A DNA stretch of 64,000 nt from contig JACRNU010000069.1 in NCBI GenBank assembly GCA_016234805.1, positions 1 through 64,000 on the forward strand. The letters run 5' to 3'. The DNA comes from Elusimicrobiota bacterium. Its GTDB lineage: Bacteria > Elusimicrobiota > Elusimicrobia > UBA1565 > UBA9628. The translations under genes were made by a program, and so were the position numbers. Position 1 is the first letter of the stretch; each line of letters begins with the position of its first letter. The notes under the pieces were generated by a model, which was not told where the DNA came from, did not search any database, and worked only from the letters and a program-made list of their open reading frames with translations. Shown here piece by piece: positions 4,703 to 24,772 of this stretch.

Positions 4703-5970
4703 GGATAGAGCCTCACCTGGAATTTGGGCGTGGGGTTGGGCCAGACCTCGGCCTTGGAGCCCTCGCCGCAGGAGGCCGTGGCGTGCACCTTGGGCCGGTC
4801 GCCCGCGACCGTGTTCGAATCGTAATTGTTCCCGTCCACGAAATTCCCGGACTCGGAGAACCTCCTGTTGAAGTTGACGTTGAAGTAGTTGCCGGGCGCG
4901 GTCCACGGCTGGGTGACGGGGTAGCCCGCGTAGGCGCCCAGCGAGGGCTTGCGCATCTTGTTGAGCTCGCTGGGCTTGACCCATAGGATCTGGAACAGCC
5001 CCGCCCCTCCCTCGCACTTGTCGAGGAAAGGGGTCCCGACCGGGCTGGTGGGCGCCTGCTCGATGTAGGGAGGGATGAGCTGCCCGGTCGGGACGCTCCC
5101 GTAATAGGTGATCTTCTGATGGCAGAAGAACTTGATGCCGCCGCCGCCGTCGCTCGAATGCAGGAAGCCGGACGCCGAAGCGTGGAAGGAATCCGCTCCC
5201 AGGGCAGCGTCGGCCATCGAGTCCCCGGTGTTGAGCCAGTAGGCCTTCTTGTAGAAGTTGTGCGCCTTGACCAGGCGGGAGAGCACCGAGTACTGGGCTT
5301 CTTCCACCGAGCCCAAGAGCTGCCAGATCTGGACATAGAGGGTGGCCATCTGCTGCGCGTCCTCCCAGTTGAGCCACCAATCGTGGGCGTCCTCCTGGTC
5401 GAAGATCACGAACACGTCCCCGTGGTACTCGGAAGCGTCGAGGTTCGGGGTGATCTCGTTCTTCTGCCCCGGCTCGACCGTCTCGCTCTGGTTGACCTTG
5501 TTGGGCCCGCTGGCGTACTGGATCGGCCAGGAGTCTTTGTCGTTGAGGGTGTCCGGCAGGGGGTTCGGCGGCTTGTAGCCCGGAGGATAGCCCGCGGACG
5601 GCCAGTCAGCGTAGGGGAACACCCCGTTGCGGTAGAGGACCTCGCCCAGGTACACGAAGCAGGACGAGGAGCCCGAGCATTTCCTCTTGCGGTCGCCCTT
5701 GATGTCGATGTCCCCGAAGCCCTCCGCGAAGATGCGCATGGGGAAGGCGCCGTTGACGTAGGCGGAGCGGTTCAAGAAGTCGGAGTAGTTCGTCATCTCC
5801 ACGAAGGCCGCGGCATCCAACGCGAACTGGTGGCGGATCTTCTCGCGCGAGAGCTTGGCCGTGTCGTAGATGAGGAAGATGAACAGGAAGAAAGACGGGA
5901 AGATGAAGATGGTGGGCAGAAGGAACTGCCCCCGTTGGGAAGCCAGCCGCGCCAGGGGACGCCAAGTCAC
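4699..5970 (-). CDS. TadG-like pilus-associated membrane-anchored protein
   Basis: The protein has 423 residues from a GTG start. The N-terminus reads RGQFLLPTIFIFPSFFLFIF, one membrane segment at about 14-37 directly after an RGQ motif, followed by a helical region rich in Ala (FALDAAAFVEMTNYSD). This is the layout of TadG-like proteins, which carry a TadE-type N-terminus and a larger extracellular part. The rest is rich in aromatic residues, Pro and Gly, with a CSGSSSC pair that could form a disulfide. I do not recognise a domain in it. It is translationally coupled (GTGA overlap) to the TadE-like gene. Confidence 0.6.
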   Translation of the reverse strand: MTWRPLARLASQRGQFLLPTIFIFPSFFLFIFLIYDTAKLSREKIRHQFALDAAAFVEMTNYSDFLNRSAYVNGAFPMRIFAEGFGDIDIKGDRKRKCSGSSSCFVYLGEVLYRNGVFPYADWPSAGYPPGYKPPNPLPDTLNDKDSWPIQYASGPNKVNQSETVEPGQKNEITPNLDASEYHGDVFVIFDQEDAHDWWLNWEDAQQMATLYVQIWQLLGSVEEAQYSVLSRLVKAHNFYKKAYWLNTGDSMADAALGADSFHASASGFLHSSDGGGGIKFFCHQKITYYGSVPTGQLIPPYIEQAPTSPVGTPFLDKCEGGAGLFQILWVKPSELNKMRKPSLGAYAGYPVTQPWTAPGNYFNVNFNRRFSESGNFVDGNNYDSNTVAGDRPKVHATASCGEGSKAEVWPNPTPKFQVRLYP

Positions 5971-12868: not shown

Positions 12869-13040
12869 GTCGCAGGTGCCTGGCTCCTAAACCGGAGCAG
12901 CACCGCTCGGCCTGGAGCCTGGCACCTCCAGCGCGAGGCCGCGGGTGCCAGGTTCCCCTGCTGGTGCCAGGCTCCTAAACCGGAGCCACACTACTGGGAC
13001 TGGAGCCAGGCACCTACTTGGGTGTGGAACCAGGCACCCC
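12869..13040. repeat. Cluster of GGTGCCAGGCTCC-type palindromic repeats
   Basis: About six copies of a 13-15-base unit (GGTGCCAGGCTCC or its complement GGAGCCTGGCACC, with small changes) lie here in alternating orientation, so several can pair into hairpins. The cluster fills most of the gap between the kinase gene and the small membrane protein gene and runs into the last codons of the kinase. Related copies lie at 9088-9140, 33801-33890 and 58530-58542. It is a REP-like family; function unknown. Confidence 0.7.
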
Positions 13041-14915
13041 CAACGCCAACAGGCGTTGGAGGAACTCCATGGCCTCGGGGATGCGCTTGGCTGGATCGGG
13101 CGCCAGGGCTCCGGCGACCAAAGCGTCCATCCCCGCGGGCAGCCCTCCGACGAGGCTGGAGAGGGGCTTGTAGCGGAGGCGCTCCTTCTGCGCCAGGTAG
13201 TCCGGCCCCTTGAAAGGGACCTCGCCGGAAAGGCACTCGTAGAGGCAGACCCCCAGGGAGAAGACGTCCGAGGCCCGCGTCGCGGTCCCGAGGTGCTGCT
13301 CGGGAGCCATGTAGACCGGGGTGCCGGAAGCGTCTTGCCGGGCGAGGTGGGTGACCGTGCCCTTGGCCTCGCGCGCCACGCCGAAATCCATGACTCGGGC
13401 CAGCCCGTGGATGTCCACCATGATGTTGGAGGGCTTGATGTCCCGGTGCAGAATCTTCGCCCGGTGGGCATGGTCCACGGCCTGGCACACGGAACGGAAC
13501 ACTTCGCGGCATTCGCCGAAACCCAGGCGCCCCCTCTCCTCAAGGATAAGGGACAGGGGCCGCCCCTCTACGAAATCGAACACGAGGTAGATCTCCCCTC
13601 CTTCCTGCACGATCTCGTGGATCGAGACGATGAAAGGGTGCGAGAGGTGCGAGACGATTTTGGCTTCCTGCAGGAACTTCTCCCTCAGCTTCGGGGAGTC
13701 CTTGATCTCCGCGGCCATCTTCTTGATCGCCACCCGGCGCTCGAGAGTGTGGTCCCAAGCCTCGAAGACCTGGCCCATGCCGCCCTTGCCGATCTGCTGC
13801 CGAAGCTCGTATTTCCCGCCGACCCGGCCGGGCGCGGCCGGTCTCCCTTCGCCCGTCCCCGGAGGCGCTGGGAAGCCGGAGGGGGCGGGCGCGGCCGGTC
13901 TCCCTTCGCCCGGGACCGGAGGCGGCGCCGAAGGCGCGGGGCCGGAGGCCGGCGCCAGGCCCTTGAGCCGCTCCCATCGCAGCATGGCGTCCTTGAACTC
14001 CACCCCGTCCGAGTAGAACCGGGAGAACGCCTCGAGCGCGACGCGGGTCTCGCCGACAGCCTCCAGGAAGACCCCGCACTCGTAGTACACGTCCGGCGCG
14101 GAATGGACGGAGATGCTCTTGCGCAGCCTCAAGGACGCGAAGATGTCCTTGGCCTTGACCACGTCCCGCAGGGCGACGCAGCACCGGAAGGCCAGGATGA
14201 TGTCCGCGTCGCTCCAGTCCGGCCGCCCGATCCCGGAGAGCATCTCGAAGGCGGCAGCCGCGGCTCCCTGGGAGAACAGGACGCACGCCTTGAGCCTCAT
14301 GGTGCGCGGGTCCTGGGGGATGGTCCGCTCGAAGATGATAAGGGCCTGGTCTGGCCGGCCCTGGCGCTCCAGGGCGCGGCCGAAGGCGAGGCAGAACTCC
14401 GGCACACGCCCCTCGCACCGCGGCCCGACGAGGGAGCCGACCGCCCGCAGCCTGATGAAGACCGCGGCCGCCGCGTCCGCGTTCCGGTCGGTCCGGGCGG
14501 CCCGGGCAAGCAGGTCGTCGGTGAGCAGGAGCTGGGCCGCCTCGAACTTCCCCTTCTCCGCCAGGGCCGCGGCCGCATCGAGGACATAGCCCGCGCCCGC
14601 GTCCCCTTCGAGGCCTGAGAGGACACGCAGGAGCTCGTCCTCGTGCGCGGGGGCCAGCAGGTTCACGAGGCCGGACGCCGGGATCGCGGTCGCGTCGCCC
14701 CCTTCCGCCACGAACCTCTTGAAGAGGGCGAAGGCCTCCTCGGGACGCGACGACGCCCATTCGCGGATCTGCAAGGCAGCGTCCTTGGCCTTGCCCCGCC
14801 GGCCCAGCTTGAAAAGATGCAAGGAGGCGGCGGCGGCCGCGGCCAGGAGCGCCGCCGCGGCGTAGGCGGGGTTCGCCTTCAGGAAAGCGGCCAGCCGGGC
14901 CCCTTCCCGCAGCAA
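13014..14915 (-). CDS. Membrane-linked Ser/Thr protein kinase with helical-repeat N-terminus
   Basis: The protein has about 633 residues. Near the N-terminus lies a hydrophobic Ala-rich segment (YAAAALLAAAAAASLHLF), then about 300 residues of helical repeat resembling TPR. A Pro/Ala-rich linker and a complete Hanks-type kinase domain (about 365-633) follow. Motifs are GKGGMG (about 376), AIKKM with the catalytic Lys, ILHRDIKPSN (about 490), MDFGVA and MAPEQ. It should phosphorylate Ser/Thr on cytosolic targets, perhaps parts of the Tad machine. There is no ATG or GTG between the upstream gene's stop and the domain, so a TTG at 14915 is the best start. The linker has a duplicated 25-base block, and the last codons (GVPGSTPK) lie in a dispersed repeat. 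Confidence 0.85.
   Translation of the reverse strand: MLREGARLAAFLKANPAYAAAALLAAAAAASLHLFKLGRRGKAKDAALQIREWASSRPEEAFALFKRFVAEGGDATAIPASGLVNLLAPAHEDELLRVLSGLEGDAGAGYVLDAAAALAEKGKFEAAQLLLTDDLLARAARTDRNADAAAAVFIRLRAVGSLVGPRCEGRVPEFCLAFGRALERQGRPDQALIIFERTIPQDPRTMRLKACVLFSQGAAAAAFEMLSGIGRPDWSDADIILAFRCCVALRDVVKAKDIFASLRLRKSISVHSAPDVYYECGVFLEAVGETRVALEAFSRFYSDGVEFKDAMLRWERLKGLAPASGPAPSAPPPVPGEGRPAAPAPSGFPAPPGTGEGRPAAPGRVGGKYELRQQIGKGGMGQVFEAWDHTLERRVAIKKMAAEIKDSPKLREKFLQEAKIVSHLSHPFIVSIHEIVQEGGEIYLVFDFVEGRPLSLILEERGRLGFGECREVFRSVCQAVDHAHRAKILHRDIKPSNIMVDIHGLARVMDFGVAREAKGTVTHLARQDASGTPVYMAPEQHLGTATRASDVFSLGVCLYECLSGEVPFKGPDYLAQKERLRYKPLSSLVGGLPAGMDALVAGALAPDPAKRIPEAMEFLQRLLALGVPGSTPK
13830..13911 (-). 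repeat. 57-bp-period duplication in the kinase linker
   Basis: An identical 25-base block occurs at 13830-13854 and 13887-13911, encoding GEGRPAAP twice. Its GC-rich core resembles the palindromic elements found in trpS and gcvP (a GGCGA..GGAGA..GGCC..GCGCC pattern). It falls in the unstructured linker, where insertion would be tolerated. Confidence 0.55.
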
Positions 14916-14940
14916 GTCGTCGAGGTAGAGGATCTCTATA

Positions 14941-16062
14941 TCAAACTCGGGGAACGCCGCCCTTGGGCTCGAAGATGATGAGGGTGCGCCGGAGCTCGCC
15001 CTCCTCCTCGAGGTGGACCGCTCGCACGTGGCAGGGGTCGGAGCGGAACATCGTGTCCGCCTCGACCACCTGGTTGGGGCGGTCGAGGGCCACGCCGACG
15101 AGCCGCAGGACGTCCTGCTGCTGGGTGTCGATGACGTCGAGGAGGTGCATCTTGCCTTCGGCCGCGACCGTTCCCGTGAGCTGGAAGTTCGTGTAGAGGA
15201 CGGAGTTGTCCTCGTCAACCACGATGGCGCGGTGGTTCTTGGACACGATCGCCGCGAGGATCGTCTTCCACCAGCGCGACTCGGCCGCCCCCCGCTGCTT
15301 CTCGCGGACCATGGTGTTGGCCATCTCGCGGCTGACCTTGCCCAGGAAGTTGGCCAGCGTGACCGCGAGGTCTCCGATCTCGTCCTGCCGGGGCGGGAAC
15401 TTGATCTCCAGGCTCTTGAGCGAGATGCCCTCCACGGTGTCGCGCAGGTGCAGGAGCGGGTTGATGACGAAGTGGTGCATGAAGAAGTACAGGGGGATGC
15501 CCATGAGGAGCAGCACCCCGATGGCGCCGACCACGTATTTTCGCATCGCGGCGTTGATGTGCTTGACGACCCCCTCGCGGCTGACCTGCATGTTGATGAC
15601 GCCCATGACCTCCCCGCGCGTGGAGAGCGGGATGGCGATGTCGTAGAGCGGCATGTTCGGGATGGCCCGGATCATGTAGGACTTGGAAAGCCAGCACTGC
15701 TCGATGGCGTCCGTCGGGATGGTGACCTCCTTCGAGAACTGGTCGAAGCTCATCGTGATCTTGGAGGGGTCCTTGAACCAGCGCACCTCGCCGTACTTGT
15801 TGAGGTAGAGGAGCGAGGCCACGCGCTCGTCCTTGGCGAGCTGGGTGATCGTGTCGAGCTCGTCCATGGTGATCGCGCCCTGATTGCGCGAGAGCCCCGA
15901 GATGAGCTTGGCCGCGTGCACGCGCACGAGGTCCAGGATCTCGAGCTTCAGGCGCTCGTCGAAGTTCCATTTGAAGAGGTTGAAGTAGAAGATCCCCCCC
16001 AGGAACAGCACGTAGATACCGATCCCCAGGAACCAGAGGGCCCACTTCGCGGTCAGCCTCAT
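14941..16062 (-). CDS. Membrane sensor protein with HAMP and PAS-like domain, no output domain
   Basis: The protein has 373 residues. It has membrane segments at about 7-28 and 179-197, with an extracytoplasmic sensor between them that resembles a single Cache/CHASE-like domain. A HAMP linker (HHFVINPLLHLRDTV) and a coil follow. The last ~110 residues (AIVVDEDNSVLYTN onwards) have the strand pattern of a PAS domain. No kinase, cyclase or methyl-accepting region is present. It probably passes a signal by contact with the Ser/Thr kinase encoded next. Its stop at 14941 is just upstream of the kinase start, and it starts one base after the TPR gene's stop. Confidence 0.7.
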   Translation of the reverse strand: MRLTAKWALWFLGIGIYVLFLGGIFYFNLFKWNFDERLKLEILDLVRVHAAKLISGLSRNQGAITMDELDTITQLAKDERVASLLYLNKYGEVRWFKDPSKITMSFDQFSKEVTIPTDAIEQCWLSKSYMIRAIPNMPLYDIAIPLSTRGEVMGVINMQVSREGVVKHINAAMRKYVVGAIGVLLLMGIPLYFFMHHFVINPLLHLRDTVEGISLKSLEIKFPPRQDEIGDLAVTLANFLGKVSREMANTMVREKQRGAAESRWWKTILAAIVSKNHRAIVVDEDNSVLYTNFQLTGTVAAEGKMHLLDVIDTQQQDVLRLVGVALDRPNQVVEADTMFRSDPCHVRAVHLEEEGELRRTLIIFEPKGGVPRV

Positions 16063-17465: not shown

Positions 17466-18362
17466 TCAGAAGCCGATCCCTCCCGCCATCAGGTTCTTGA
17501 GCATCGGCGCCAGCATCATGATGAAGACCGTCGGGAAGATGAAGACCATCAGAGGGATGAGCATCTTCGTGGCCGCCTGGGCCGCGAGCTTCTCGGCCTT
17601 GTTGAGCCGGCGGAAGCGCATGTCGGCCGCGTAGTTGCGCAGCAGTTCCACGAGGCTCGTGCCGAGCTCGTCCGACTGGGTGATCAGGCCCACGAAGGAC
17701 CGGATCTCCTGGATGCCCGTGCGCATCGAGAAGCGTTTCAAGGCGTCCCGGCGCGAGTAGCCGAGCTGGATCTCGCCGAGCATCTTTCCGACCTCGGCCT
17801 CGAGCTCGGACTTGTCCTTGGAGATCCTCACGATGCGGTCGAAGGCGGTCATATAGTCGAGGCCGGCCTCGATGGTCAGCGCCGCCAGGTCCACGAACGT
17901 GGGGAAGCTGCGCATGATCGCGGTCTGGCGGGCCCGGATCCTGCCGTTGAAGATGGAGTCCGGGATGAGGAACCCGACGAGGCCGAAGATGAGCAGCACC
18001 GGGGAGCCGGAAAGCCAGGCGAAGCCGCCGCCCATGACCGCGGCCAGGACCTCCTTCATGTGCAGCATCTCCAGAGGGGTGGGCTTCTCGGGCCGGCCCA
18101 AGAGCATGTGCATCTCCTCGATCTTGACGTCGAGGCGCAGCGCCTTGAGCAGGAACAGGTCGAGGCGGTCCCAGAGGCTGCCGTGCGGGTTGAGCTGGGC
18201 GAAGCCGGAACTCATGCCGACCTCGCGCTTGGCCAACTGGGAGAGGTCGGTCTCGGAAGGCGGCGGAGGAGGCGTCAGGAGCCGGGAGACCGCGGTGTAG
18301 GCGGCCATGGAGCCCAGGATGCCCACGGCGAGCATGACCCACTTCAGGATGGAGTCGCTCAT
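17466..18362 (-). CDS. tadC: TadC-like inner-membrane platform protein (T2SF domain)
   Basis: The protein has 298 residues. A membrane segment near the N-terminus, a cytosolic stretch, two adjacent membrane segments (about 110-150) and a T2SF domain follow, with FPTFVDLAALTIEAGLDY, a DELGTSLVELLR motif and a final membrane segment ending in MLAPML. With TadB it forms the platform on which the TadA ATPase works. The ATG at 18362 is preferred over an upstream TTG (18371) because GGAGG lies ten bases before it. That site is inside a hairpin (18372-18390). The N-terminal linker has a run of Pro (TPPPPPSE). Confidence 0.88.
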   Translation of the reverse strand: MSDSILKWVMLAVGILGSMAAYTAVSRLLTPPPPPSETDLSQLAKREVGMSSGFAQLNPHGSLWDRLDLFLLKALRLDVKIEEMHMLLGRPEKPTPLEMLHMKEVLAAVMGGGFAWLSGSPVLLIFGLVGFLIPDSIFNGRIRARQTAIMRSFPTFVDLAALTIEAGLDYMTAFDRIVRISKDKSELEAEVGKMLGEIQLGYSRRDALKRFSMRTGIQEIRSFVGLITQSDELGTSLVELLRNYAADMRFRRLNKAEKLAAQAATKMLIPLMVFIFPTVFIMMLAPMLKNLMAGGIGF

Positions 18363-18371
18363 ATGCCGCAA

Positions 18372-18423: not shown

Positions 18424-19929
18424 TCATACCTGAATGTCCCCCAGCTTATCCACCACCTTCATCCCGATGGAAATCCAGACCGTGCAGAAGACGAGCACCA
18501 TCACCCCGATGGCGCTGAAGTAGAAGTCGCTCATGACCTTGGGCTGGAACATCCACATGACGGCGAGCATCACCCACGGCATCAGCCCGACCACGATGGC
18601 CTGGATGCGCTGCTGGGCGGTCATGGCCGCGGTCTTCTCCACGAGCTTGGCCTCCTCGCGGATGTTCTCCACGATGCGGTCGAAGATCTTGGTGAGGTTG
18701 CCGCCGACGGAGCGCTGGATGATGATGGCCTTGATCATATAGGAGAGCAGGCGGCTGGGCACGCGGTCGAGGATGCCTTCCATGGCTTTCTCAAGGCTGG
18801 TGCCGAGCTGGTAGTTCTTGATGCAGAGCCCGAACTCCTCCGAGATGGGCGGCTGGAGGTCGCGCTGGACGAGCTCGAAGCACTGCACGATGTCCACGCC
18901 CGATTTGAGGCCGTTCGACATGAGGATCATGCCGTCCATAAGCTGGGCCTCGCACTTGAGCGCGCGCCGGAACTTGATGTTCTTGAGCAGCCACCCCGGC
19001 AGGATGAGGCCGCCGTAGAGGCCGAACCCGCTGAAGATCACGAACCCGAAGATGTTGAAGGTCAGCGAACCGACGATGACCCCCAGGAGGGCAGGGCCGC
19101 CGACGAGATAGTTGATCTTCACGGTCATGAACTGCCGCTCGTACTCGTGGGCCCACTCCTTGGCCTTGACCTTATAGTCTTCCCATGCCTGAAGGATCTT
19201 GCCCTCCTGTCCCGTGCCCAGGGCCCAGCCCGCGAAGAAGATCAGGCCCACGCCCACGAGCTTGAGCAGGTAGGGCATGGTCTTGGAGCCCTCCTTGTCC
19301 GGGGCCGGAGGGGCGTAGCCCCTGGGCGGAGCGTTGAGGATGGCGTGGGTGCTGTTGGAGAGCGCGGCGATGGCGATCACCGCGGCCTTGTACCGCTCCG
19401 TGCTGTTGGCGGTGAGCCCCCCCATGAGGGAGTCCATCTCCTTGAGGATGAGCTCGAGGTTGCCGAGCACGGCCCGGCCCCGGCCGCCGAGAGAGTTCCC
19501 GACCCGCGCGCGGTAGAGCCGGTCGACGGCCATCTGGAAGCGGATCCGGTTGTCCTCATAGTCGCGGATGAGGGAGCCTGGCTGGACGAGCTGGCCGCCG
19601 TCGGCGGGCGGGAAGGACTTGCGGGCCAGCTCGAAGAACTCATAGAGGACCGCGGACGGCGCCTGCCACAGCTGTGCCTCGTTGAGGATGCCCTCCTCAG
19701 GGTCCTGCCAGACGGGCTTCTTGAGCATGGCGTCGAGGGTCTGGTCCACCCACGCGGGGGGCTGGAGGGTCGCGTCGCGGTCCTTCTTGAAATAGTGGTA
19801 GACGATCTGGGCCTTGGCCTCGGCCCCATCGTTCTTGTCCACGAGGAGCTTGATCTCAACCGGGGTGAAGATCTGCGCCCGCGCCGGCGCGGCGCACAGC
19901 AGGACCAGGACGATGGCGGCGGCGTTCAT
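18424..19929 (-). CDS. tadB: TadB-like platform protein with extra N-terminal periplasmic region
   Basis: The protein has 501 residues. The C-terminal ~300 residues are a standard TadB: two membrane segments near 280-315, a T2SF domain with MDGMILMSNGLKSGVDIVQCF and LGTSLEKAMEGIL, and terminal membrane segments. Before this lie an N-terminal signal-like peptide (IVLVLLCAAPARAQ) and about 180 extra residues with charged helices, then a membrane segment near 215-232. TadB proteins are usually about 300-320 residues, so the added part is unusual and presumably faces the periplasm. The start overlaps the stop of the TadZ-TadA gene by one base (TGATG), so the two are translationally coupled. Confidence 0.85.
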   Translation of the reverse strand: MNAAAIVLVLLCAAPARAQIFTPVEIKLLVDKNDGAEAKAQIVYHYFKKDRDATLQPPAWVDQTLDAMLKKPVWQDPEEGILNEAQLWQAPSAVLYEFFELARKSFPPADGGQLVQPGSLIRDYEDNRIRFQMAVDRLYRARVGNSLGGRGRAVLGNLELILKEMDSLMGGLTANSTERYKAAVIAIAALSNSTHAILNAPPRGYAPPAPDKEGSKTMPYLLKLVGVGLIFFAGWALGTGQEGKILQAWEDYKVKAKEWAHEYERQFMTVKINYLVGGPALLGVIVGSLTFNIFGFVIFSGFGLYGGLILPGWLLKNIKFRRALKCEAQLMDGMILMSNGLKSGVDIVQCFELVQRDLQPPISEEFGLCIKNYQLGTSLEKAMEGILDRVPSRLLSYMIKAIIIQRSVGGNLTKIFDRIVENIREEAKLVEKTAAMTAQQRIQAIVVGLMPWVMLAVMWMFQPKVMSDFYFSAIGVMVLVFCTVWISIGMKVVDKLGDIQV

Positions 19930-22217
19930 CAGCCCACCGCCCCCGCGTGGAACTCCGGAGCCTTGGGCATGATGCCCTTGGCCTTCTGCTCCGGGCTCTG
20001 GAACAAAGACAGCGGGATGTCCATGCCCTTGTGCTTGAACTCGGCGTAGAAAGTCGGGACGTTGCCGCACGCCACGAAATCGCCCATCGTCTTGCCCTCT
20101 GGCGTGACAGTCTGCAGGTTGAAGCGGAAGAGGTCCTGGACCTTGAAGGACACCCCGTCCTTGCCGAAGATCTCGGTGATGTAGGTCACGCGGCGCTTGC
20201 CGTCCGAGAAGCGCGTAAGCTGGACGATCATGTGCACGGCGCTCGAGATCATGTCCACCAGCACGGAGATCGGCAGGTCGGTGCCGGCCATGAGGCACAT
20301 GGCCGAAAGGCGCGCGAGGGAGTCCTTGGGGGTGTTGGCGTGGATGGTGGCCAAGGAGCCTTCGTGGCCGGTATTCATGGCCTGGAGCATGTCGAGGGCC
20401 TCGGCGCCGCGGCACTCGCCGACCACGATGCGGTCGGGCCTCATGCGCAGGCAGTTCTTGATGAGGTCCCGGATGGTCACCTCGCCCTTGCCCTCGATGT
20501 TGGGGGGCCGCGACTCCAGGCGGACCCAGTGGTCCTGCATGAGCCGGAGCTCGGCGGTGTCCTCGACCGTGATGATGCGCTCGTCCTCGGGGATGAAGGA
20601 CGAGCACATGTTGAGGAAGACCGTCTTGCCGGTGCCGGTGCCGCCCGCGATGATGATATTCTTGCGCACGATCACGGCAGCCCTGATGAACTCGATCATC
20701 GCGGGCGTGACCGAGCCGAAGCCGATGAGCTGCTCGTGGGTGAAGGGCTTGGCCGAGAACCGCCGGATGGTCAGGGTCGGCCCGGAGACCGCCAGGGGGT
20801 TGATGATGGCGTTGACGCGGGAGCCGTCCTTCAAGCGCGCGTCCACCAGGGGCACGGACTCGTCGATGCGCCGGCCGACCGGGGCCACGATGCGCTTGAT
20901 GACCTGGATGACCTGCTCGTCGTCGCGGAACCGCATGGGCAGGAGGACCAGCTTGCCCTTCTGCTCGATGTAGATCTTGTCGAAGGCGTTGACCATGATC
21001 TCGTTGACGGACGGGTCCCGGAGCAGGGCCTGGAGGGGCCCGAGGCCCAGGATCTCGTCCACCAGTTCCGTCACGAACTGCTCGCGCAGGGTGCGGGTGA
21101 GCGCGAGGTTCGGCTCGCGCTGCAGGAGGTTCTCGATGATGCTGCTCACCCGGTGCCGGTTATCCTCGTTCTGGCTGGGGTCCTCGGAGATGCGGATGTG
21201 CTCCGTCTCCATGGCCGTGACCACGTTCTTGTGCATCTTGGTCTTGAGCTCGTTCCAGAAGGCCGGCACGGCTTCGCCCGCAGTCGTGACCACGGCCTTG
21301 CCCTGCTCCCCTCCCCCGCCCCCGCCCCCGCCTCCGCCCTGCGGGGCCGCCCCCGTGGACTTCCAGAGGAAGTCCGCTCCCTGGCCGATCTCCTCGTAGT
21401 CGGAGGACGTGTCCCAGGTCTTGACCGTGGGCTTGACCTCGTAGGTCCTGCCCAGGAGGATGCGCAGGGTCTTGACCCACTCCGACTGCATGTTCTCGAC
21501 GAGCAGGATCTTCTGGGTGTTGGCGTACTCCGGGAGGAGGTCCTCCCAGGGCATGTAGGCCAGCACCTTCTTGCCCATGTTCTCGAAGAAGCGGTTGACC
21601 TCCTTGGGCGCGATGGCGCCGGGGAGGTTGGCCTGGTTGACCACGACCTCGAACTTCTCGAGCGGGAAGTGCAGGGCCTTGTACTCCTGGAAGAGGGCAT
21701 AGGTGGCCTCGAAGTGGGAGCGCTGGGGCAGGCAGGTCCAGAAAATGAGGTCCGCCAGGTCGAAGGAGAAGACCTGCATGGGGAAGAAGGGGTCCACGTC
21801 CAGGAACAGATCGTAGGATTCGGCGAGGCTCCTGAGGACGGCGACCACGGAAGCCGACGGCAGGTTGCGGATGTCCGAGAGCTTCTCGCCCAGGGGCAGC
21901 AGGCCCACCCCGTAGGAGCTGATGGGGATGCGGCCGCGCAGGAGCCTGCCGATGCCCGTGCTCGTGTCGCCCAGGAGCGGGACGAGGCTCGCCAGGGTCG
22001 GCGGCCGGCCCACGGAGAGCAGGAAGGCCAGGTCGTTGCGGCAGAGCGCGTCCATCTGCACGATGATGACCTTGCGGTTCTGGCTCCCGGCCCACGCCAG
22101 GGCCAGGTTGAGCGCGATGGTGCTCTTGCCGGCCCCCTCCTTGGGGCCGCTCAGAACGACGACGCGGCAAGGCTCCCGAGCCTTGCCGGTCTCAGTCTCC
22201 GGATTCTGATCAGCCAT
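19929..22217 (-). CDS. TadZ-TadA fusion: ParA/MinD-like ATPase joined to pilus secretion ATPase
   Basis: The protein has 762 residues and two ATPase halves. Residues 1 to ~285 are TadZ/CpaE-like, with a deviant Walker A KEGAGKST near 26 and FDLADLIFWTCLP in place of the usual Walker B region. TadZ proteins place the pilus at a pole. A linker with ten glycines follows at about 294-303. Residues ~330-762 are TadA/CpaF, with MVNAFDKIYIEQKGKL, a LKDGSRVNAI loop, Walker A GGTGTGKT (about 527), VEDTAELR (Asp box), RPDRIVVGECRG (Walker B) and HANTPKDSL (His box). TadA powers pilus assembly. The two are separate genes in the Tad systems I know. The reading frame is open throughout. Confidence 0.92.
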   Translation of the reverse strand: MADQNPETETGKAREPCRVVVLSGPKEGAGKSTIALNLALAWAGSQNRKVIIVQMDALCRNDLAFLLSVGRPPTLASLVPLLGDTSTGIGRLLRGRIPISSYGVGLLPLGEKLSDIRNLPSASVVAVLRSLAESYDLFLDVDPFFPMQVFSFDLADLIFWTCLPQRSHFEATYALFQEYKALHFPLEKFEVVVNQANLPGAIAPKEVNRFFENMGKKVLAYMPWEDLLPEYANTQKILLVENMQSEWVKTLRILLGRTYEVKPTVKTWDTSSDYEEIGQGADFLWKSTGAAPQGGGGGGGGGGEQGKAVVTTAGEAVPAFWNELKTKMHKNVVTAMETEHIRISEDPSQNEDNRHRVSSIIENLLQREPNLALTRTLREQFVTELVDEILGLGPLQALLRDPSVNEIMVNAFDKIYIEQKGKLVLLPMRFRDDEQVIQVIKRIVAPVGRRIDESVPLVDARLKDGSRVNAIINPLAVSGPTLTIRRFSAKPFTHEQLIGFGSVTPAMIEFIRAAVIVRKNIIIAGGTGTGKTVFLNMCSSFIPEDERIITVEDTAELRLMQDHWVRLESRPPNIEGKGEVTIRDLIKNCLRMRPDRIVVGECRGAEALDMLQAMNTGHEGSLATIHANTPKDSLARLSAMCLMAGTDLPISVLVDMISSAVHMIVQLTRFSDGKRRVTYITEIFGKDGVSFKVQDLFRFNLQTVTPEGKTMGDFVACGNVPTFYAEFKHKGMDIPLSLFQSPEQKAKGIMPKAPEFHAGAVG

Positions 22218-22235: not shown

Positions 22236-22982
22236 TCACTTGACGATCTCCATCGTGATGAACAGGAAGAGGGACTTCTGCTCCTCGATGATGTTCGTGT
22301 TGGTGAAGAGCAGGCCGAGGAGCGGGATCCTCCCGATGAAGGGGATCCGGGTCTTGGTGATGTTCTTCGAGCTCATCTTGAGCCCCCCGATGACGAGGGT
22401 CTCGCCGCTCTTGAGCTCCACCGAGGTCTGGACCTGTCTCGTGGTGATGGAGGGCACCGAGGTGTTGCCCACCGTGACGGGCTTCGAGAAGTCCGGATTG
22501 GAGACCTCGAGCTGGGCCTCCGCGCGGATGGTGTCCTTCTTGTTGGGGTTGATCACCGGCAGGACGTTGAGGATCACGCCGAACTTCTTGAACTCCACGC
22601 CCACGCCCTGGTTGTTCGTGACGGGGTAGGGCTGGTCGCCGCCCACCACGAAGTTCGCCTGGTTGCCGGCGGTCACGATGACTTTCGGGTTGGACAGGAG
22701 CTGGGCCTTGCCCTCGGTCTCGAGCAGCTTCAAGGAGGTCTGGAGCTGGGTCTTGCGGGCGAAGTCGCCGAGCGTATAGATGCCGGGGATGGTCTCCTCC
22801 GCGAAGGCGATCCCGGTCTGGAAGGGACCCCACGCGAAGCCCGTGTCCTTGGACACGGACCCCGAGATCTCCACGATGTCCGCCGAGATCGCGATCAGCG
22901 AGTCCTCCGGTTGCGCCCAGGCGGCGGTCGACAGCGTCCACAACCACACGCTCCACAGCGCGCCTTTCCACAGGTGTCTCAT
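22236..22982 (-). CDS. Short secretin (CpaC/RcpA-like outer-membrane channel)
   Basis: The protein has 248 residues with a signal peptide (WSVWLWTLSTAAWAQ). The remainder is the conserved secretin domain: LKLLETEGKAQLLSNPKVIVTAGNQANFVVGG, then the closing motif SGETLVIGGL, TRIPFIGRIPLLGLLF. This should oligomerise as the outer-membrane ring for the pilus. CpaC/RcpA secretins usually exceed 400 residues. This one lacks the N-terminal pilus-assembly and BON-like ring domains that contact the inner-membrane parts. Another protein, perhaps the extra region of TadB or the TPR protein, would have to bridge the periplasm. The gene lies between cpaB and the tadZA fusion. Confidence 0.85.
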   Translation of the reverse strand: MRHLWKGALWSVWLWTLSTAAWAQPEDSLIAISADIVEISGSVSKDTGFAWGPFQTGIAFAEETIPGIYTLGDFARKTQLQTSLKLLETEGKAQLLSNPKVIVTAGNQANFVVGGDQPYPVTNNQGVGVEFKKFGVILNVLPVINPNKKDTIRAEAQLEVSNPDFSKPVTVGNTSVPSITTRQVQTSVELKSGETLVIGGLKMSSKNITKTRIPFIGRIPLLGLLFTNTNIIEEQKSLFLFITMEIVK

Positions 22983-23025: not shown

Positions 23026-23790
23026 TTACGGCCCCTGCTTGAAAAGCTTTCTGAAACTCGCCATCTCCATGGGGTGCATCTCGACGTCCCCCAGGCCCCG
23101 CAGGATCACGGTCGGCTCCCCCTGTTTGGCGGCCAGGGCGAGGTACTGCGCCTCGTTCGGATTCAAAGCCAGGCTGATGACGGCCTTCTCGGAGAAGGCG
23201 GCGGTCTTGTCCTCCTTCTCCTTGACGCCCTTGAGCTGCTTGGCGCTCATGCCCATCCCCATGTCCATGCCCACCGCGATCACGAGCACGTTCTGGAGGA
23301 TGGTGGCGGTCACCTTTTCCTTGCGGTTCTCTCCCATGGACGCGTCGAAGGTCACGAGGACGTCCACCCGGTCGCCGGGCTTGACGAGGGCCTTGAGCTC
23401 CGCGTCGATGCCCAGGATGGTGCCGCGATAGCCGGGAGGGATCTTGACGCTCAGGCCCGCCTCGGGGGACATGGGGATGAGGGCCGCGGTCGTGACCTGA
23501 TTGCCCTTGGGGATGCGGATGCGGGTGACCAGATTGGAGATCAGCTTGATGTCGGACGGAGACTTCACCTCGAACCCGTCCTGCTCCATGAACTTGCGGG
23601 GGATCTGCATGGCTTCCACCATCTGTTCGTTGACCACGGTGCGCTCCGGGATGTCGACCCGCGCCACGAGGACGTTGCCCATGTCGTAGGCCTGGCTCAG
23701 CGCCCGCTCCTTGGAGCTGAGCACCATCAGGTAGAAGACCGCGGCGAGCATCGCCAGGACCATCGGGATCAGCACGCCTTTCTTTTCCAT
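23026..23790 (-). CDS. cpaB: CpaB/RcpC-like pilus assembly protein (SAF domain)
   Basis: The protein has 254 residues with one N-terminal membrane segment (about 5-24). A SAF domain (about 40-100: VLVARVDIPERTVVNEQM) and the RcpC part follow, with PPGYRGTILGIDAELKALVKPGDRVDVLVTF, typical of CpaB. A short Met/Gly-rich loop (GMDMGMGMS) sits in the periplasmic part. CpaB acts with the secretin in Tad pilus assembly. It is 43 bases upstream of the secretin gene and 13 bases after the TadE gene in the same operon. Confidence 0.9.
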   Translation of the reverse strand: MEKKGVLIPMVLAMLAAVFYLMVLSSKERALSQAYDMGNVLVARVDIPERTVVNEQMVEAMQIPRKFMEQDGFEVKSPSDIKLISNLVTRIRIPKGNQVTTAALIPMSPEAGLSVKIPPGYRGTILGIDAELKALVKPGDRVDVLVTFDASMGENRKEKVTATILQNVLVIAVGMDMGMGMSAKQLKGVKEKEDKTAAFSEKAVISLALNPNEAQYLALAAKQGEPTVILRGLGDVEMHPMEMASFRKLFKQGP

Positions 23791-23803: not shown

Positions 23804-24265
23804 TTATTTCAGAAGCGGCTGCTCGATCGGCATGCGCAGCGTGATCTCCACCGTGCGCTTGCCGGCGCCCGGAGGCTTCGACAGCGCGAGGTTGCTGATC
23901 GGAAAGATCAGAGGGATCGGATACTCGGTCGTCAGCACCAGGTCGTAGCAGTTGACCCCGGCCTGAGGGTCCGCGATGGTCATGTCCGGGAAGGCAGCCT
24001 TGACCGTCGCCGCGGGAACGATGCGCTGCAGGAAGGTCTGCAGCTTGGCCTTGCTCACGTTCGGCCCGGTCTTGCCGCCGGCCGGCACCGCGGTCATCGC
24101 GCCGTAGCGCGCCGTCTCCCAGGTCGCGTGCTGGATGATGATGAGATTGTAAGCGATGTTGCCCATCTCGAGAATCGTGAAGACGATGGCCAGGAAGAGC
24201 GGCAGGATCAGGATCACCTCCACGATGACCTGACCCAAGGAACGACGCCGCCCTTTCTTCATCAT
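23804..24265 (-). CDS. TadE-like pseudopilin
   Basis: The protein has 153 residues. A basic head (MMKKGRRRSLG) is followed by QVIVEVILILPLFLAIVF with the Glu expected after the prepilin cleavage site, one membrane segment and an extracytoplasmic domain. This is a TadE-type minor pilin, probably processed by a TadV/CpaA peptidase that is not in this window. The ATG is preceded by a good GAGGAGG site. The 117-bp gap before the gene is GC-rich and can fold. Confidence 0.8.
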   Translation of the reverse strand: MMKKGRRRSLGQVIVEVILILPLFLAIVFTILEMGNIAYNLIIIQHATWETARYGAMTAVPAGGKTGPNVSKAKLQTFLQRIVPAATVKAAFPDMTIADPQAGVNCYDLVLTTEYPIPLIFPISNLALSKPPGAGKRTVEITLRMPIEQPLLK

Positions 24266-24382: not shown

Positions 24383-24589
24383 TTACTGGCCGAGACTGCC
24401 CGCGGCCTTGCCGATCATCCCCTGGATCTGCTCGAAGAGCTGCGGCATGTACTTCTTGAGGGCCACGCCGGCCACGAGCACCACGCCCACGACCACGGTC
24501 AGCATCAGGAGATACTCGACCGTGTTCTGGCCCTTGTTCTCCCCGATCCACCGGTTCAACCTGTTCTGCGCCGCGACGAATCTCTCCAT
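24383..24589 (-). CDS. flp: Flp-type major pilin
   Basis: The protein has 68 residues. A short head ends in GENKGQNTVEYLLMLTVVVGVVLVAG, the class III prepilin pattern: Gly-Gln cleavage region, Glu and Tyr (VEY) right after it, and one long hydrophobic helix. The short C-terminal tail (QGMIGKAAGSLGQ) fits Flp pilins, which form the Tad pilus fibre. It is the second gene of the operon reading leftward. The structured gap after it suggests high pilin dosage. Confidence 0.85.
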   Translation of the reverse strand: MERFVAAQNRLNRWIGENKGQNTVEYLLMLTVVVGVVLVAGVALKKYMPQLFEQIQGMIGKAAGSLGQ

Positions 24590-24604: not shown

Positions 24605-24772
24605 CTATTGATACGTCATCAATATCTTGGTCCCGCCCCTGATGAACATCTTGCGCACCTGCTGATGGAGGAACCCGTAAAGCCCGACGAAGAAGGTCAC
24701 CAGCATCAGGGTCGTCAGCAGGTACTCCACCGCAGTCTGACCCCTCCGCCCGAGCCCAGGCCCGCGTCTCAT
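24605..24772 (-). CDS. Very small Flp/TadE-like prepilin
   Basis: This 55-residue gene lies directly behind the operon promoter. It begins MRRGPGLGRRGQTAVEYLLT, so it has a basic head, a Gly-Gln site, the VEY motif and a hydrophobic helix (TLMLVTFFVGLYGFL), and ends KILMTYQ. It is a second Flp-type pilin or a minor initiating pilin. Automated callers with a length cut-off would miss it. The reading frame closes with TAG at 24605-24607, 16 bases before the next pilin's start. Confidence 0.75.
   Translation of the reverse strand: MRRGPGLGRRGQTAVEYLLTTLMLVTFFVGLYGFLHQQVRKMFIRGGTKILMTYQ

Follow-up and report, generated by a model that had tools for sequence, protein, structure and literature searches.

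A natural fusion of the TadZ ATPase domain to the TadA/CpaF motor is widespread in Elusimicrobiota and recurs in other phyla

A single gene in the tad operon of an Elusimicrobiota bacterium joins the ATPase domain of TadZ to a complete TadA/CpaF motor in one polypeptide. The gene lies in a 64,000-nucleotide stretch (assembly GCA_016234805.1, contig JACRNU010000069.1, positions 1 to 64,000), which we call the window. Its parts, the TadZ ATPase domain and TadA, are known; their arrangement is unreported and widespread. A survey of 292 CpaF orthologues distinguished three architectures, without an N-terminal intrinsically disordered region (IDR; class I), with an IDR (class II), and with an FHA domain and an IDR (class III) (PMC12019362). 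A MinD-type domain followed by a disordered linker fits none of these classes, and the fusion is a fourth CpaF architecture, missing from the published classification (PMC12019362). No report of a TadZ-TadA fusion was found in the literature searched, two TadZ papers of 2012 and the subscription journals lying outside that search. Most likely, the added domain serves the motor as a tethered scaffold or as a regulatory ring.

The gene is a single open reading frame of 762 codons that runs from ATG to TGA at 22217..19929 on the minus strand. From the N terminus, the predicted protein comprises a ParA/MinD-type domain homologous to the TadZ ATPase domain (residues 18-262; 21432..22166, minus), with a deviant Walker A motif GPKEGAGKS that keeps both lysines (residues 24-32; 22122..22148, minus); a disordered linker (residues 279-318; 21264..21383, minus); a three-helix bundle corresponding to the N-terminal domain 1 (NTD1) of the motor (residues 321-390; 21048..21257, minus), as described for CpaF (PMC11300603); and the CpaF NTD2 with the RecA-like ATPase domain (residues 404-716; 20070..21008, minus). 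Pfam CbiA (ParA/MinD) matched residues 21-235 with 28.7 bits, over its cut-off, and T2SSE matched residues 391-670 with 214.5 bits (E 2.4e-63); NCBIfam TIGR03819 scored under its cut-off and was regarded as uninformative, since related models score in large number. The whole chain was modelled as a monomer with AlphaFold2 (AF2), using 40 fused homologues as input. The model had a mean predicted local distance difference test score (pLDDT) of 80.9 and showed a folded ParA/MinD domain at 18-262, disorder at 279-315 (pLDDT <50), three helices (321-338, 347-367 and 375-390) and a CpaF-type NTD2 and C-terminal domain (CTD) at about 404-716. The sequence-only reading, which had placed a ParA/MinD-like TadZ domain and a complete TadA in one frame and had called for domain searches of both halves and a structure prediction, is thus confirmed by Pfam, hhalign and AF2.

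The motor half is a complete CpaF/TadA. It matched Caulobacter CpaF (PDB 8rjf) with a phmmer E value of 2.7e-110 and a Foldseek E value of 3e-45, and its Walker A motif GGTGTGKT (residues 525-532) is intact and conserved in the alignment. It has the NTD1 bundle, NTD2 and RecA-like CTD in common with Caulobacter CpaF (PDB 8rjf and 9e24), at 42% identity by structure alignment, and tadB and tadC lie downstream of the fusion. Caulobacter CpaF, however, has only a disordered N terminus of 79 residues where the fusion has its linker preceded by an extra MinD-type domain, about 260 residues long. A parallel in plan is class III, the FHA-CpaF of Achromobacter and KilF of Myxococcus, which likewise bears a regulatory module N-terminal to the same motor and belongs to the same supported TadA clade; there the place of the TadZ ATPase domain is taken by an FHA domain, which reads phospho-peptides.

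On sequence comparison the first domain is the TadZ ATPase domain without its receiver. In Bacillota, Chloroflexota, Actinomycetota and others, tadA is immediately preceded by a stand-alone tadZ gene of about 385-530 codons that encodes a receiver followed by an ATPase domain, and the fused domain occupies this same operon slot. When fused domains were aligned by hhalign to stand-alone TadZ proteins neighbouring tadA, the match had a probability of 100% and an E value of 2.7e-47, and it covered only TadZ columns 139-384, which are those of the ATPase domain; as the fused domain begins at residue 18, the receiver is missing. Thus the fusion has the ParA/MinD ATPase domain and the position directly before tadA in common with TadZ/CpaE (Eubacterium rectale TadZ, PDB 3fkq), and differs from it in lacking the receiver and in being covalently attached to the motor rather than a separate protein. 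The Pfam family TadZ_N (PF16968) was silent in the host and in control genomes alike, and a TadZ profile made for this analysis was used in its place. With this whole-TadZ profile no other receiver-ATPase protein was found in the host genome (92% complete), nor was a second one present among the matches listed for four Bdellovibrio-type genomes, where the best match was the fusion itself.

A different origin of the first domain, as a FleN/MinD-type ATPase recruited independently of TadZ, draws on searches of solved structures: a single-sequence search placed FleN (E 5.7e-4) ahead of TadZ 3fkq (E 0.8), and with a profile of the fused domains the ParA-family ATPase 3ea0 and FleN also outranked 3fkq. 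Foldseek of the AF2 model of the domain, which was well predicted on its own (pLDDT 84.8 and mostly above 85 along the domain, predicted template modelling score (pTM) 0.85), returned FlhG, 3ea0, MinD and FleN. Against this origin stand the hhalign match to tadA-adjacent tadZ over the full domain and the placement of the domain exactly in the tadZ slot, and we regard independent recruitment as improbable.

The fusion is found throughout the phylum Elusimicrobiota, and also in Bdellovibrionota and Omnitrophota. All 57 genomes of a first sample matched, mostly with a full-length fusion in one frame. Within the phylum 228 of 295 genomes matched at E<=1e-100; among the matches listed, only four do not cover both halves in one frame, so that about 150 listed genomes have the single-frame fusion. 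Other classes of Elusimicrobiota also have such frames, about 690-745 residues long, whose first domain can be recognised with a profile. Bdellovibrionota matched in 109 of 114 genomes, 100 of the 114 spanning both halves. Both halves were spanned in 34 of 117 Omnitrophota genomes, the others carrying unfused motors of about 450 amino acids, and single fusion loci were seen in WOR-3, Acidobacteria and Eremiobacterota. The fusion is no isolated oddity, since it spans a phylum and recurs elsewhere. Two small genomes of the Bdellovibrionota phylum (loci L199 and L200) carry shorter fusions of 663-670 amino acids, whose first domain starts with GTPSSGKTS, a conventional and not a deviant P-loop.

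We considered whether the fusion could be an artefact of assembly or sequencing at the G-rich linker, the host assembly being a draft of 128 contigs and the run itself rich in G/C. It is rejected for the family, with a probability that we consider negligible: hundreds of genomes, single-contig ones included, share the single frame with differing linkers. Close relatives, 70-74% identical, were also single-frame fusions with quite different linkers, and neither a frameshift in the linker nor a general separation of tadZ and tadA among close relatives was found.

In a tree of motor domains, inferred by a quick method, the fused forms, with the exception of L104, grouped with the FHA motors of Pseudomonadota and Myxococcota in one clade that had a Shimodaira-Hasegawa-like approximate likelihood ratio test (SH-aLRT) support of 95, and motors accompanied by a stand-alone tadZ fell outside it. 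The fused state required at least 4 changes on this tree, which does not fix their direction.

The ratio of non-synonymous to synonymous substitution rates (dN/dS) was determined for nine pairs of related genomes. It ranged from 0.007 to 0.27 for the first domain and from 0.02 to 0.32 for the motor, and was lower in the first domain in 8 of 9 pairs; as judged from these substitutions, purifying selection on the first domain is as strong as on the motor. The class of the window keeps the P-loop GPKEG[VA]GK[ST] in nearly all rows of the alignment. The 12 fused domains from other Elusimicrobiota classes have KGG[VC]GQT in 4 cases and have lost the glycine pattern in 8; the P-loop lysine is gone, and the Walker B aspartate is kept in only one of the 12. 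Nucleotide binding has probably been lost in these decayed domains with the fold still attached, which suggests that these sister classes, in keeping fold and tether, can do without ATP turnover in the first domain. Structure is in this way separated from ATP turnover in some lineages. The loci with decayed P-loop and Walker B motifs are L160, L162-L167, L174 and L168-L170, and the domain of family f15 was detectable by iterated profile only.

The linker shows the opposite behaviour to both flanking domains. Between the first domain and NTD1 it measures 41-61 residues across relatives and is rich in Ala, Gly, Pro and Ser, and its dN/dS reached 0.6-1.06 in 6 of 9 genome pairs. A ten-glycine hinge had been proposed from the sequence, and the run is indeed present at residues 294-303 (21309..21338, minus), encoded by mixed codons (GGC GGA GGC GGG GGC GGG GGC GGG GGA GGG), the longest homopolymer in the fusion gene being 6. 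Within the alignment ten glycines are seen only in this genome; L037 has 8, and no other relative in the alignment has more than 4. By these substitution rates the linker evolves almost freely and the ten-glycine run is a local variant. The poly-glycine as a conserved functional hinge is accordingly rejected.

Any role for the first domain must be seen against the Caulobacter motor. There, NTD1 protrudes at the top of the CpaF hexamer with a disordered N terminus ahead of it, the flexibility of hinge 1 is essential, and motor and platform have been modelled as 6:3:3 (PMC11300603). In situ maps have been fitted with six CpaE dimers round CpaF, the contacts between dimers being ascribed to the receiver domains (PMC13170226). 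We estimate a probability of about 0.6 that the tethered TadZ ATPase domain is a scaffold or clamp on the motor, linking it to the platform in the inner membrane and regulating its engagement. By analogy with Caulobacter, the fusion subunits would form a CpaF-like hexamer with six tethered first domains, and these would sit on the membrane-facing side, where Caulobacter has its separate CpaE ring. Neighbouring first domains may then pair in an ATP-dependent manner, and the resulting sandwich dimers, three at most, would fit the predicted 6:3:3 symmetry; the covalent tether would replace the recruitment ascribed to receiver contacts, and the paired domains would act as a clamp or gate on the motor at its membrane platform. 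The single chain locks TadZ and TadA in a 1:1 ratio by construction, as had been suggested. The further suggestion that six TadZ domains are displayed is arithmetically right if TadA is hexameric, but the Caulobacter model has six CpaE dimers, that is, twelve subunits per CpaF hexamer (PMC13170226), so that the fusion changes the ratio and does not only lock it.

The sequence-only reading had stressed a localisation ATPase and pilus placement, and this is its weakest part. On that view the chief function of the first domain is that of a positioning ATPase, which would bring the pilus machine to a particular site in the cell, such as the pole, and lock placement to the motor. The ParA/MinD fold, the deviant Walker A motif that is intact in the window's class, and the presence of the positioning factors FlhG, FleN and MinD among the nearest solved folds all speak for it. 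The receiver domain of TadZ, reportedly proposed by Xu et al. in 2012 to place the protein at the pole, is absent from the fusion. A C-terminal amphipathic membrane helix, as in TadZ/CpaE, or a membrane-targeting helix like that of MinD is not clearly recognisable, the helix at the C terminus of the first domain (residues 272-286) being acidic, with a net charge of -3 and a modest hydrophobic moment of 0.33. Furthermore, the sister classes have lost P-loop and Walker B and still keep the domain fused, a loss that would abolish a positioning cycle. TadZ/CpaE is nonetheless regarded as a localisation factor (PMC6668835; PMC13170226). The lost receiver and the decayed P-loops weaken a positioning role, which we consider possible but unlikely.

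Alternatively, the fusion might be made and then separated, by internal initiation in the linker or NTD1 or by proteolysis, into ordinary TadZ-like and TadA proteins. The linker is unstructured, and in-frame ATG and GTG codons occur at residues 309-336, GTG 309 having a purine-rich stretch upstream. However, the ATG codons lack a strong ribosome-binding site and the linker is not conserved in the manner of a cleavage or start site, and we give this alternative little credence.

Several observations weigh against the scaffold or clamp. The whole-chain AF2 model had a pTM of 0.50 and so does not predict how the two halves lie relative to each other. The apparently intact P-loop and strong selection in the window's class indicate that ATP cycling probably still matters there. 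In a genome of the same genus (G001, locus L137, contig C58, near position 5758) a clean deletion of 73 base pairs in the first domain breaks the frame, possibly an assembly error. No experiment addressing the first domain of any fused protein was found in the literature searched.

A broader proposal, which we put forward tentatively and at somewhat less than even odds, is that the fusion represents a fourth class of Tad motors, of ancient origin: the TadZ ATPase domain has become a built-in ring of the motor, the tether has replaced receiver-based recruitment, and the domain later became a pseudo-ATPase scaffold in several lineages. If this were true, the core task of TadZ would be structural support of the motor and not pilus placement. 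TadZ/CpaE has been termed a localisation factor and, more recently, modelled as six dimers round CpaF. A natural and widespread covalent TadZ-TadA pair is independent evidence that the two are direct, stoichiometric partners, and it fixes a 1:1 ratio that the 12:6 Caulobacter model does not predict. Where annotation pipelines or system-finding models look for tadZ as a gene of its own, they could report such systems as incomplete.

The same architecture occurs in the tractable predator Bdellovibrio bacteriovorus HD100, where its role is directly testable. Published primers for reverse transcription PCR (PMC3818213) were located in a genome (G380) consisting of a single contig of 3,782,950 bases; the bd0111 (tadA) sites fall in the fusion and the bd0110 sites in the next gene, tadB, and Bd0111 of HD100 is therefore a TadZ-TadA fusion. 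Bd0111 has 739 amino acids, the same domain order as the window protein, to which it is about 35% identical, a place in a tad operon, and a canonical P-loop, GGKGGVGKS. The protein has been detected by mass spectrometry, and Flp pilins are needed for predation in B. bacteriovorus (PMC5430801). The Bdellovibrio literature examined names Bd0111 only as TadA or TadA/TadB-like.

The operon around the fusion reads, in minus-strand order, FlgD-type repeat protein, PorV-like outer-membrane protein, two Flp-like pilins, TadE-like protein, CpaB, short secretin, fusion, TadB, TadC, TPR protein and HAMP-type membrane protein, the FlgD, PorV and HAMP labels being readings of the sequence and not results of family searches. 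This order is the same throughout the class Elusimicrobia. On the minus strand, the second Flp-like pilin (55 amino acids, 24605..24772) has a GQTAVEYLL motif; the other, a Flp-type pilin of 68 amino acids (24383..24589), gave a weak Class III signal peptide/Flp1-like match and has a conserved operon position. They are followed by a tadE-like pseudopilin (23804..24265; Pfam TadE), cpaB/rcpC (23026..23790; NCBIfam TIGR03177 over cut-off) and a short secretin of the rcpA/cpaC type (22236..22982; 248 amino acids, Pfam Secretin at 86-248). This secretin is without most of the periplasmic N-domains and resembles the short KilC secretin of Myxococcus (PMC8460266). The proposed translational coupling of the fusion to tadB is supported by TGATG at 19927-19931, where the stop codon of the fusion overlaps the tadB start. 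The tadB gene (18424..19929, minus) encodes a long N-terminal extension that opens with a signal-peptide-like stretch, the T2SSF domain being found only at 336-458; tadC (17466..18371, minus) is a T2SSF protein by Pfam.

Directly downstream of the tad operon, at 13014-15218, lies a Ser/Thr kinase with TPR-like repeats, whose long frame overlaps the HAMP-type gene. Among the loci tested, a full-length match beside the operon was found in the same-genus genome only. A kinase 48% identical to it forms the C terminus of a protein of 1037 amino acids at locus L127 (G041, contig C7, 5401-8511, minus), which also has two tandem fused-type ParA/MinD domains and a relic similar to the beginning of TadA; that genome, which is 85% complete, yielded no intact fusion. 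The host has a second, unfused VirB11/TadA-like ATPase of 356 amino acids on contig C24 (locus L126, 5959-9485), with an FHA-Ser/Thr kinase and a phosphatase-like gene nearby; it has no TadZ domain, and an unfused copy like it recurs in relatives.

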